Assembly (NCBI RefSeq): GCF_028290625.1
Contig: NZ_JAQGJM010000038.1
Location: 124,001-188,000, forward strand
From: Devosia sp.
GTDB lineage: Bacteria; Pseudomonadota; Alphaproteobacteria; Rhizobiales; Devosiaceae
Direction of reading: 5' to 3'
DNA: 64,000 nucleotides
Positions 3,876-7,580 of the stretch are shown in pieces (positions within the stretch are counted from its first letter, which is position 1; each line of letters begins with the position of its first letter). Position numbers and translations under genes: made by a program. Below the pieces are notes generated by a model. It had not been told where the DNA came from, did not search any database, and saw only the letters and a list, made by a program, of their open reading frames with translations.

Positions 3876-4006
3876 GGCCACGCCCTCGTGGTTCGAGGCT
3901 CGCAAGAGCTCGCGCCTCACCATGAGGGCTACTTTAAGTGCAGAGTTCCCAGTAGTCCTCATGGTGAGGTGGGAGCGAAGCGACCCTCGAACCACGAGGG
4001 CGTGCC
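3876..4006. repeat. palindromic intergenic repeat, family A, copy 1
   Basis: About 130 bp with complementary ends: CACGCCCTCGTGGTTCGAGG on the left and CCTCGAACCACGAGGGCGTG on the right. Inner arms CTCACCATGAGG and CCTCATGGTGAGG flank a short unrelated centre. The element would fold into one long cruciform or RNA hairpin. It fills the space between the bamE terminator and nusB. Three further copies are in this window. Confidence 0.9.
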
Positions 4007-4012
4007 ACAATG

Positions 4013-4507
4013 CTACTGCGTTTCGGTCATATCCGAGCCGGCTTCGCGGGCGATGGCGTCGAGGGTGGCATTGACGAGGCCGGACGCGTCGTCTTCGTAG
4101 AAGGCCTTGGCGATATCGACATATTCGGTGATGACGACGCGGGGCGGAATGTCCTTGCGACGCAGCAGCTCGAACGCCGCGGCGCGCAGGATAGCGCGCA
4201 GCGTCGCATCGACGCGCTCGACTGGCCAGCCATCTGAGAGGGCGCGATCAACAGCAGGATCGATTTCAAGCTGATGCTTGGCGACGCCGCCGACGATCTG
4301 CCGGAAGAAATCGGCATCGGCGGGCAGGTATTGCTCGCCCTCGATCTCGCGGCCGAGATGGAAGGCGCCGAACTGGGCCAGGGTGTCTTCGAGCGTGGCG
4401 CGGCCGACATCCATTTGATAGAGCGCCTGCACCGCGGCAAGGCGGGCGGCCCCGCGCTGATTGGCGGCGCGGCTGGACTGGGGATCGCGTTTGGGGGCGT
4501 CGGCCAT
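4013..4507 (-). CDS. nusB: transcription antitermination factor NusB
   Basis: RNA-binding factor that works with NusE(S10) at boxA in rRNA antitermination. The all-helical family is recognisable from RGAARLAAVQALYQMDV at the N-terminus, VDATLRAILRAAAFELL, and VITEYVDIAKAFYEDDASGLVNA... near the end. I chose ATG at 4507 (MADAPKRDP) because AGGA lies 9-10 bases upstream; a longer frame to 4546 lacks this support. That gives 164 residues. It follows ribH on the same strand with a short gap, the usual alphaproteobacterial pairing. Confidence 0.94.
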   Translation of the reverse strand: MADAPKRDPQSSRAANQRGAARLAAVQALYQMDVGRATLEDTLAQFGAFHLGREIEGEQYLPADADFFRQIVGGVAKHQLEIDPAVDRALSDGWPVERVDATLRAILRAAAFELLRRKDIPPRVVITEYVDIAKAFYEDDASGLVNATLDAIAREAGSDMTETQ

Positions 4508-4565
4508 CAATTGCGTTCCTGCGTAGCCTTGCCCAGTGGCGGGCAAGTGGTGTTCGGCGTCATGC

Positions 4566-5039
4566 TCATGCGTTCAATTTCAGTTTGAGGGCGGCCATGG
4601 CGAGGGCGGTCCGGGCGGCGCGGCCGCCGACATTCTTGCCGATAACGGCGGTCTGGCCGTGGGCCTCACCTTCGGTTTCGACCATGACCAAGCCATTGCC
4701 GAGCGGCATGGCATCGACCACGGACAGCTCAAGCAAGGCGCGGGTGACTTCAGGGACGACGTGGCCGACGGCGACCGTGGTGTTGCGCACGACGACGCCC
4801 AGGGCGATGAAACCGTCATAGTCGCCGGCTTCAAGCGCCATGGCGATGGCGGCCGGGATTTCGAGTACGCTGGGGACCGAGACGACATCGTAGCTGGCGC
4901 CGGCTGTTTCCAGGACTTCGCTAGCGCCCCGCAGGGCTTCGTCGGCGCGGTCGGCATCGTAGCGCGACTCGACGATCAGGAAATGCTGCTCATCGCCGGA
5001 GGCGATATCGATGGGAAAAGTCGCGCCTGCCGGGGCCAT
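4566..5039 (-). CDS. ribH: lumazine synthase homologue (RibH1-type) lacking the catalytic loop
   Basis: Homologous over its whole 157 residues to 6,7-dimethyl-8-ribityllumazine synthase, the penultimate step of riboflavin synthesis: HFLIVESRYDADRADEAL, VPSVLEIPAAIAMAL, YDGFIALGVVVR, LGNGLVMVETE and a GGRAARTAL tail all match. However the family's substrate loop, normally R-G-E/A-T-x-H-F-D/E after VI, reads R-N-T-T-V-A-V-G-H here. The invariant Gly and the catalytic His after VxR are therefore absent (Ala at the His position). The reading frame is intact. In relatives ribD and ribE sit between nrdR and ribH; here only about 100 bases do. It may be inactive, structural or redundant to another ribH. 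Confidence 0.85.
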   Translation of the reverse strand: MAPAGATFPIDIASGDEQHFLIVESRYDADRADEALRGASEVLETAGASYDVVSVPSVLEIPAAIAMALEAGDYDGFIALGVVVRNTTVAVGHVVPEVTRALLELSVVDAMPLGNGLVMVETEGEAHGQTAVIGKNVGGRAARTALAMAALKLKLNA

Positions 5040-5042
5040 GTG

Positions 5043-5105
5043 TCAGTCCTTGTTGCGGAAGTCGGCGATGATCAACCCCATAGTCGCCCCCAGCAGGAAC
5101 TTCAA
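5043..5105 (-). CDS. possible 20-residue hydrophobic ORF in the nrdR-ribH gap
   Basis: A TTG-initiated frame reading (M)KFLLGATMGLIIADFRNKD ends two bases before the ribH start. It has a hydrophobic core and a polar tail, like small membrane peptides, but no clear ribosome site. It could equally be a remnant of a lost gene or chance. Recorded because the gap is where ribD-ribE are expected. Confidence 0.25.
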   Translation of the reverse strand: MKFLLGATMGLIIADFRNKD

Positions 5106-5143
5106 CCGAATAGGCGATCCAAAAGGGGGAGAAGCGGGCTGGA

Positions 5144-5623
5144 TCAGTCGTCTTCGGTCGCCGGCACGCTCGGGGTTTTCGCCAGTTCGCTGAGGAACGA
5201 GCGGAAATCGTCGGCAGCGGAGAAGTTCTTGTAGACCGAGGCAAAGCGCACGAAGGCGACATCATCGAGGCCCTTGAGGCCCTCCATGACATATTCGCCG
5301 ATCTGGTCGGAGGTGACTTCGACTTCGCCCAGCGATTCGAGCTGGCGGACGATGCCCGAAATCATGCGCTCGCTGCGTTCGGGATCGACGGAGCGCTTGC
5401 GCAAGGCGGTATTGACCGAACGCGCCAGCTTTTCGCGGTCGAAGGGGACCTTGCGGCCGCTCTTCTTGACCACGGTAAGGTCGCGCAGCTGCACGCGCTC
5501 GAAGGTGGTGAAGCGGCCGCCGCAGCCGGAACAGATGCGGCGGCGGCGGATGGCACCGGAATCTTCGGTGGGGCGACTGTCCTTGACCTGGGTGTCGTCG
5601 TTACCGCAATAGGGACAGCGCAT
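5144..5623 (-). CDS. nrdR: transcriptional repressor NrdR
   Basis: Zinc-ribbon and ATP-cone regulator of ribonucleotide reductase genes. Cys3-x2-Cys6 (MRCPYCG) and a second CxxC near residues 31-34 (RICSGCG) make the zinc finger; FTTFERV and [16 protein letters not shown] open the ATP-cone, which continues to about residue 140. Length 159 is normal. It lies 8 bases downstream of glyA on the same strand, so the two are probably one transcript. This glyA-nrdR order is widespread in alphaproteobacteria. Confidence 0.96.
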
Positions 5624-5631
5624 TACAGTTC

Positions 5632-6936
5632 CTAGCTCGCGTAGATCGGGAAGCGGGCAGTGAGCGCCTTGACCTTGTCGCGCACGGCCGCTTCGACGGC
5701 GGCGTTGCCCTCGTCGGAATTGGCTTCGCGCAGCCCATCGAGCACGTCAACGATCAGATCGCCGATTTCCTGGAATTCGGCGACGCCGAAACCGCGGGTG
5801 GTGCCGGCCGGGGTGCCCAGGCGAATGCCCGAGGTGACGAAGGGCTTTTCCGGATCGAAAGGAATGCCGTTCTTGTTGCAGGTGATGAATGCACGGCCCA
5901 GACCCTGCTCGGCGCGCTTGCCGGTGGCGTTCTTGGCGCGTAGGTCGACCAGCATCAGGTGGTTGTCGGTGCCGCCGGAGACGACTTCCAGGCCATGCGA
6001 CTTCAACCGCTCGGCCAGCGCCTTGGCGTTGGTCACGACCTGCTGGGCATAGGCCTTGAATTCGGGCTGCAGCGCTTCCTTGAAGGCCACGGCCTTGGCG
6101 GCGATGACGTGCATAAGCGGGCCGCCCTGCAGGCCGGGGAACACGGCGGAATTGATCTTCTTGGCCAGATCCTCGTCATTGGTGAGGATCATGCCGCCGC
6201 GCGGGCCGCGCAGGGACTTGTGGGTGGTGGTGGTGGTGACATGGGCATGGGGCACCGGCGAGGGGTGCACGCCGCCGGCCACGAGGCCTGCGATATGAGC
6301 CATGTCGACCATCAGGTAAGCGCCCACTTCATCGGCGATGGCGCGGAAGCGGGCCCAGTCCCAGAAGCGGGAATAGGCGGTGCCGCCCGCCAGAATCAGC
6401 TTCGGCTTGTGCTCGCGGGCGAGGCGCTCGACCTCTTCCATATCGAGCAGGTGATCGTCGCGGCGCACGCCGTAGGAGACGACGTTGAACCACTTGCCGC
6501 TCATGTTGACCGGCGAGCCGTGGGTCAGGTGACCGCCCGAATTGAGGTCGAGTCCCATGAAGGTATCGCCGGGCTGCAGCAGCGCCAGGAACACGGCCTG
6601 GTTCATCTGCGAGCCGGAATTGGGCTGGACGTTGGCGAACTTGGCGCCGAAGAGCTGCTTGGCGCGCTCGATGGCCAGGGTTTCGGCGACGTCAACGAAC
6701 TGGCAGCCGCCATAGTAGCGTTTGCCCGGATAGCCTTCGGCATATTTGTTGGTCATGATCGAGCCCTGCGCTTCTAGCACGGCGCGGGAGACGATGTTTT
6801 CCGAGGCGATCAGCTCGATTTCATGCTGCTGGCGACCCAATTCGTTCTGGATCGCGCCCGCGATCTCGGGATCGGTCTCGGCCAGCGAGGCGCTGAAAAA
6901 GGCGGGAAACAGCGGAAGGGAATTTGCAGCGCTCAT
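5632..6936 (-). CDS. glyA: serine hydroxymethyltransferase
   Basis: PLP enzyme that interconverts serine and glycine with tetrahydrofolate, supplying one-carbon units. Signatures are [46 protein letters not shown] and the PLP-lysine block [16 protein letters not shown] chose ATG at 6936 ([10 protein letters not shown]) because AGGAGA lies seven bases upstream; the frame stays open further 5' but that extension looks non-coding. The resulting 434 residues is the standard length. First gene of a minus-strand group glyA-nrdR-ribH-nusB. Confidence 0.97.
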
Positions 6937-7133
6937 GGGCGATCTCCTGGGGCTTTCCCGAGATGTTGTGCTGGGCGTGGGGTGTTGGCGCAGCCTGTAG
7001 CACAAAGCGCGGCGCCAATCCAAGCGTCGCGGCGTGATTTCGCAGGGTTTGACGCAACCCGGAGTGCCATCTGCGCATTGCTTTGGCAGAGACTGGAATA
7101 TCCGGTTGCGGGTGGGTCTTCAGGAGATACAAA

Positions 7134-7580
7134 ATGAACGTTTTGAGCAAGGGACTTACAGCGCTGGCACTGATCAGCACGATTGCTATTTCCAGCGTCG
7201 TTCCGACGCAGGCGCAGAGCATTCAGTTCGGTTTTGGCCAACGCGACCGCGTGATCACCAGCTATTGCGACCGCAATCCGCGCGACCGCGATTGCCGCAG
7301 CTACTATGGCGGCGGCTGGCACGATTCTGATTACAACCGCTTCTATCGTTCGCGCCGCAGCGGATTGGATAGCATCGCCAGCGGCCTGTTCGGCTTTGGA
7401 TTCGGCGCTATCCTGGGCAGCGCGATCGCCAATTCCAACAATAACGACCGGGTGATCGGCCGTGTTTATAACGGCGGCAGTTCCCATGTGCAGGCATGCT
7501 ATGCCCGCTACAGGTCGTATGACGCCAACAGCGACACCTATATGGGTTACGATGGCTATCGTCACCGCTGCAATCTCTAG
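7134..7580 (+). CDS. BA14K family secreted protein
   Basis: A 148-residue exported protein: signal peptide with cleavage near VVPTQAQS, a Tyr/Arg/Asp-rich middle (YCDRNPRDRDCRSYYGGG), a glycine-rich hydrophobic stretch around residues 80-100 (FGFGFGAILGSAIANS) and the C-terminal BA14K motif ACYARYRSYDANSDTYMGYD ending in RHRCNL. The family is named after a Brucella immunoreactive, lectin-like protein and is common in Hyphomicrobiales; its physiological role is unknown. The start is supported by AGGAGA upstream. A terminator follows. Confidence 0.9.
   Translation: MNVLSKGLTALALISTIAISSVVPTQAQSIQFGFGQRDRVITSYCDRNPRDRDCRSYYGGGWHDSDYNRFYRSRRSGLDSIASGLFGFGFGAILGSAIANSNNNDRVIGRVYNGGSSHVQACYARYRSYDANSDTYMGYDGYRHRCNL

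Follow-up and report, generated by a model that had tools for sequence, protein, structure and literature searches.

An orphaned lumazine synthase homologue in Devosia sp. with lost active-site residues and renewed purifying selection

What becomes of a pathway enzyme when the rest of its pathway is lost? This question is raised by a locus in the soil bacterium Devosia sp. (NCBI RefSeq assembly GCF_028290625.1), where a homologue of lumazine synthase, RibH, is encoded between nrdR and nusB in a stretch of 64,000 nucleotides (contig NZ_JAQGJM010000038.1, positions 124,001 to 188,000 of the forward strand), hereafter the window; its genome of origin, G000, has 4.96 Mb, with a completeness of 98.3% and a contamination of 4.5%. 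Orphaned pathway enzymes usually decay, yet in this case a vitamin enzyme seems to have given up its catalysis while selection continues to preserve it. The explanation that we consider likely is that the riboflavin pathway was lost and that this RibH was repurposed, so that a protein with the lumazine synthase fold now works without catalysis or in a different way. Living relatives show each stage of such a history: full operon, relic, orphan and empty slot. The case opens the questions of the fate of pathway enzymes after auxotrophy and of non-catalytic uses of this fold; in the open-licence literature we found nothing joining Devosia with lumazine synthase, and no lumazine synthase pseudoenzyme in an auxotroph.

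On the minus strand of the window the genes are arranged in the order glyA, nrdR, a spacer of 104 base pairs, ribH and nusB:

4566..5039, minus strand: gene for the RibH-like protein of 157 amino acids (PF00885, 95.4 bits), catalytic loop and phosphate-binding Arg lost.
4758..4787, minus strand: altered active-site loop, residues 85-94, RNTTVAVGHV, its position follows from alignments and from counting on from the ATG at 5039.
5073..5137, minus strand: ribE relic (3' part, ribE nucleotides 395-460), matching G005 of the genus Devosia at 56 of 63 aligned bases.
5144..5623, minus strand: nrdR (TIGR00244, 154.9 bits, above the cut-off).
4013..4546, minus strand: nusB (TIGR01951, 127.6 bits, above the cut-off); the listed start is TTG, with an ATG 13 codons further in.
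5632..7023, minus strand: glyA, the upstream neighbour (PF00464, 593 bits).

The ribH-like frame begins with ATG and contains no internal stop, so that the original prediction of an intact frame lying about 100 bases from nrdR is confirmed. The span it had given, 4566-5143, does enclose the gene, but it also takes in the spacer 5040-5143, which is not part of ribH.

Is the product of this gene still a lumazine synthase? Its PF00885 (DMRL_synthase) score stands above the gathering score of 26.7 and places it in the fold family. In a gap-free alignment, however, the loop RGETTHYEIV of the canonical Devosia RibH is replaced by RNTTVAVGHV. The original prediction had described this change, with the catalytic His and a preceding Gly substituted between alignable flanks, and the comparison of RNTTVAVGH with RGETTHYEI, free of insertions and deletions, agrees with it (H90A, G86N). 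Two further losses, which it had not mentioned, are those of the phosphate-binding Arg (R129Q) and of the Lys (K137V), so that the active-site His, Arg and Lys are A90, Q129 and V137 in the window protein. Each of the four ancestral residues is invariant in 45 of 45 canonical RibH proteins, a reference set of 36 from other Alphaproteobacteria and nine from the genus. The 36 were drawn from 80 of 581 confirmed relatives (the 80 carry no information on the rarity of the altered loop outside the genus) and were found by two peptide patterns, YDGFVALG-like and GILTVENE-like; conservation within these stretches is therefore partly selected, and the positions of the His, Arg and Lys fall outside them. 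Of the 49 positions with a conservation of 90% or more in this set, 16 are changed. Thr88, Glu60 and the aromatic residue at position 27 (Y27) are kept, and so are conserved positions without a catalytic part, among them glycines, Pro56 and Pro62. The RibH of a second genome, G017, is 96% identical to the window protein, has its residue at all 49 conserved positions and carries the identical loop, which shows that the loop is conserved in a related species; a sequencing error is unlikely as its cause, since two genomes have it.

We take H90, R129 and K137 to correspond, by an assumed offset of two, to His88, Arg127 and Lys135 of B. subtilis. According to PMC2935281, the Arg and the Thr are strictly conserved across known lumazine synthases, replacement of the Arg by an uncharged residue gives an inactive enzyme, and other active-site residues have a weak influence. 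Profile scores point the same way as the residues: the window protein falls below the cut-offs of both NCBIfam equivalog models, with 118.8 against 174 for NF000814 and 57.5 against 84.6 for TIGR00114, and so does the G017 protein (115.9 and 58.1). As a control, three of the nine canonical Devosia RibH were scored and all three pass (178-183 and 106-113, respectively). By these sequence comparisons the window protein is a member of the lumazine synthase fold family that is not classed as a lumazine synthase, and it probably lacks lumazine synthase activity.

Could the pathway still operate from another part of the genome? The only PF00885 match in the whole of G000 is the window RibH itself. 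Genome searches of G000 gave no match for riboflavin synthase (RibE, PF00677), DHBP synthase (RibB, PF00926) or GTP cyclohydrolase II (RibA, PF00925), profiles that match in 10 to 14 of 14 control genomes. A full-length bifunctional RibD is absent from G000 as well, the six RibD_C (PF01872) matches all lying in frames of 119-241 amino acids. G017 is likewise without PF00677 and PF00926 matches (ribA was searched in G000 only). On the basis of these searches we reject the relocation of riboflavin synthesis within the genome that the original prediction had assumed: no second ribH was found, and the remainder of the pathway to which a lumazine synthase would belong was not found in G000. Because the RibE, RibB and RibA domains and a full RibD were not found, Devosia sp. 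G000 is predicted to be a riboflavin auxotroph. In Rhizobiales an alternative early step of riboflavin synthesis, BrbF, is described (PMC9478397); it would presumably not replace RibE.

A possible source of the vitamin lies about 30 kb away, outside the window, where a gene for an EamA transporter (PF00892, 63.8 bits) directly follows a flavin mononucleotide (FMN) riboswitch (RF00050, 104.4 bits, L144:2689-2971). We take RibN, a riboflavin importer, to belong to the EamA type. Its occurrence together with an FMN riboswitch is reported from Alphaproteobacteria in excerpts of PMC4418817. Imported riboflavin would thus be what sustains G000.

The riboswitch before the EamA gene is itself unusual in that it holds an insert of more than 100 bases, with a similar sequence, as judged by eye, in G000 and G106. 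In G017 (L145) the FMN riboswitch gives the same split double match, and that of G000 yields 104 bits when read whole. Both copies lie outside the window:

G000 L144:2689-2971: FMN riboswitch with insert.
G106 L147:3423-3711: FMN riboswitch with insert.

How the pathway was lost from the locus is recorded in the spacer between nrdR and ribH. The segment 5073-5137 aligns with nucleotides 395-460 of the G005 ribE with a score of 71, whereas none of 300 shuffles scored above 24, and G017 carries the same relic. On the strength of this alignment, the 65-nucleotide remnant shows that ribD and nearly all of ribE were deleted between nrdR and ribH, and the order nrdR-ribH-nusB has persisted; both the deletion and the conserved synteny had been anticipated by the original prediction. 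We also observed that the last 78 bases before ribH (5040-5117), which include most of the relic, differ at only three positions between G000 and G017. Compared with about 37 changes at 124 synonymous sites in ribH (~30%), this is a significant deficit (Fisher p 3e-6). The relic region itself therefore looks constrained and may perhaps be regulatory, as a leader or promoter of ribH-nusB; no consensus sigma-70 promoter that would explain the constraint was found in window positions 3900-7300.

Does selection still act on the protein? Between G000 and G017 the ratio of non-synonymous to synonymous substitution rates (dN/dS) of ribH is 0.081 at a dS of 0.386. The changes number about 11 at non-synonymous and 37 at synonymous sites, a departure from equal rates with a Fisher p of 8e-15. 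The flanking genes of the same two genomes give 0.102 (nrdR), 0.104 (nusB) and 0.051 (glyA). The original prediction had rightly concluded that RibH lost its old role, and had allowed for a degenerating RibH, which the low ratio contradicts, or for one with another role. Over the longer distance from G000 to the canonical G005 the dN/dS of ribH rises to 0.445, compared with 0.063-0.107 in three canonical RibH pairs. In a maximum-likelihood RibH tree, which holds 12 outgroup rows and 40 of the genus (one a further RibH of G032, the other 39 from the nrdR-nusB slot; G038 was left out), the stem of the G000/G017 pair measures 1.1 substitutions per site, against 0.057 between its two members. RibH thus changed fast after the loss of the pathway and then came under purifying selection, the latter being shown for this pair. 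Since fast change followed by constraint is the expectation for a protein that takes another role, we infer that RibH was repurposed.

The same slot was compared across 75 genomes of the genus. The full operon, nrdR-ribD-ribE-ribH-nusB, is present in nine (G018 and G025 are counted here by the place of their ribE match, ribD being unread in both), the arrangement of the window in two, ribH alone in 28, ribD alone in 20, and neither gene in ten; six are unclassified because the locus is broken, cut or not fetched (G016, G037, G038, G041, G048 and G049). In one of these, G038 (L107), glyA, nrdR, ribD, ribE and ribH are all in split pieces, a state more suggestive of sequencing error than of decay, and this genome is not among the rows of the trees. 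The 28 RibH proteins found alone form one clade in the RibH tree (support 100/100, stem 0.54). All 28 keep the His, all 28 keep the Arg, and all carry A, S or N at the aromatic gate position 27 together with N89, I115 and R137. The window RibH, with Y27, V89, N115 and V137, is without this signature. According to an excerpt of PMC2828483, where the result is given as unpublished, the exchange W22A in B. abortus RibH2 removes the activity and leaves the structure unaltered; in our reading of the sequences, W22 would occupy the same gate position as residue 27.

Purifying selection also acts on the 28 (median dN/dS 0.09, from the 106 of 378 pairs with dS 0.1-1.0). The four that were scored all pass TIGR00114 narrowly (88.4-93.6 against 84.6) and fall below NF000814 (154-163 against 174); because of the narrow pass, these proteins may still be active, unlike that of the window. 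Riboflavin synthase is also present in eight of the 28 genomes, and a further RibH elsewhere in seven, which argues that the orphan is not kept for riboflavin synthesis. Among G002, G004, G008, G010, G024 and G101 are genomes of this type in which one to three rib clusters lie elsewhere and the orphan is nevertheless retained. Besides a riboswitch, these clusters contain DHBP synthase, riboflavin synthase and another RibH, and they may be later reacquisitions from an outside source.

In parallel with RibH, ribD too is found orphaned, left without ribE and ribH at the locus:

L109-L116, L119, L121, L122, L124, L126-L129, L131, L132, L136, L137: orphan ribD in the nrdR-nusB slot (20 genomes).

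The zinc deaminase motif (HAE ... PC ... PPC) of the orphan RibD is mostly kept, with HAA in L128 and HPE or HSE in a few, and the reductase half appears by eye to be drifting, with deletions. Riboflavin synthase is encoded elsewhere in five of these 20 genomes.

Beyond the genus no orphan RibH was detected in other genera of the family: among the 136 genomes searched, 75 of them in the genus, every PF00885-positive genome of another genus has riboflavin synthase. PF00885 matches below the cut-off in G122, G146 and G135 have no nrdR, nusB, glyA or rib genes in the 4-6 kb around them.

Taken in sequence, the proposed course of events would begin with the loss of riboflavin synthesis, a deletion taking ribD and nearly all of ribE. 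The cell would have come to depend on imported riboflavin, for which the EamA protein behind the FMN riboswitch is the candidate. RibH, its substrates gone, would then have changed fast and lost the active-site His, Arg and Lys, after which strong purifying selection would have resumed, as seen in the G000/G017 pair. Fold and pocket would have been kept for a new, probably non-catalytic use. For the nature of this use we tentatively favour ligand binding: the pocket at the subunit interface, its phosphate site lost, may bind a flavin or another heteroaromatic compound and so serve to store or buffer it, the pentamer or shell being retained. A job in new catalysis seems doubtful by comparison. 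A wider generalization, which we put forward with some reserve, would be that loss of the rib pathway repeatedly freed one rib gene at the same slot, from which selection made something new, at least twice from RibH and at least once from RibD; the function of the fold in the window would then be independent of riboflavin synthesis.

Several observations weigh against repurposing after pathway loss. The loss of the His, on which the original prediction had relied, is weak evidence by itself, because active-site residues other than the Arg have little influence in the excerpts of PMC2935281; what carries the argument is the change of the Arg and the Lys together with the missing pathway. At the given completeness and contamination of G000 a rib gene may have been missed, yet G017 is also without ribE and ribB. 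No RibN or other riboflavin-transporter model of NCBIfam matched the EamA protein. The altered loop occurs in only two of the 39 slot RibH that were read, and the long stem of the pair may hold relaxed evolution, which is not separable there from positive selection.

Different histories and functions must be weighed against these same data. If the gene were a decaying pseudogene, a leftover that stays open by chance or for translation into nusB, then the lost pathway, the 16 changed positions and the absence of ribH from the slot in 30 of 75 genomes would be readily understood, but a dN/dS of 0.081 at the observed divergence of two species largely refutes such decay and led us to reject it. 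Moreover, neither copy has a stop or a frameshift, translational coupling would leave the amino-acid sequence unprotected, and in ten of the 75 genomes nusB comes next after nrdR, both ribD and ribH being absent from the interval; we regard a pseudogene as very improbable. It is scarcely credible that the protein is a still-active lumazine synthase with a variant loop and imported precursors. The PF00885 match, the retained Thr88, Glu60 and aromatic residue 27 and the weak effect of most active-site residues (PMC2935281, in excerpts) are compatible with activity, whereas the Arg is replaced by Gln, an uncharged residue of the kind that inactivates the enzyme in the same excerpts, and the Lys by Val. 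The enzymes that would supply one substrate (RibB) and the other (RibA and a full RibD) or use the product (RibE) were not found.

The original prediction had suggested an empty cage. A purely structural cage or partner scaffold would agree with the retained glycines, Pro56, Pro62 and further conserved residues outside catalysis, and pentamers as well as icosahedral shells are formed by lumazine synthases (PMC2935281, in excerpts), but assembly or cargo has left no sign in the present results. We consider this role unlikely, though worth serious attention; ligand binding is tentatively favoured over it. Rather unlikely, too, is a single ancient orphaning shared with the 28 genomes that have ribH alone, of which the pair would be the most diverged branch. 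The RibH tree is compatible with one clade (approximately unbiased test, p-AU 0.48), and S at position 57 is found in the pair and in 18 of the 28. Against this stand the absence of the signature of the 28 from the pair and the relic, which is clear in G000 and G017 but, in the nine of the 28 spacers where it was sought, lies within chance in eight and is marginal in L093 (genome G054; one of 200 shuffles equal). In addition, the rows nearest to the pair in the glyA-nrdR-nusB tree have the complete operon, but this tree (62 of 75 genomes, with glyA of two types) is weak, the smallest starred set that holds the pair having 21 rows of mixed state. In view of the relic, the missing signature and these nearest rows in the weak tree, two separate orphaning events, one in the pair and one in the 28, are likely, though only likely.

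How does the repurposed RibH compare with systems already known? The best solved match, over residues 14-156, is PDB 2o6h ('6,7-dimethyl-8-ribityllumazine synthase 1', E 1.5e-30), which, like 2f59, we take to come from Brucella. In contrast to these RibH1 proteins of the rhizobial rib operon, the window RibH has lost the catalytic His, the phosphate-binding Arg and the Lys, and no rib pathway was found in its genome. Canonical RibH of the genus (e.g. G005 and G042) are 61% identical to it and likewise stand directly before nusB, but they are set in the full operon and pass the NCBIfam cut-offs. The 28 orphans share with the window the loss of ribD-ribE, a ribH kept between nrdR and nusB and purifying selection, and differ in their His and Arg and in their signature. 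In the excerpts available, B. abortus RibH2 (PMC2828483) and M. smegmatis MSMEG_6598 (PMC12240317) are also RibH homologues outside the single classical role; they coexist with a working pathway, whereas the window RibH stands alone, with neither a second RibH nor a pathway found in its genome.

Finally, two types of the glyA gene beside nrdR occur in the genus, with identities to the window glyA of about 90% and about 74%. They cut across otherwise similar species, a pattern that looks like gene replacement at the nrdR locus.
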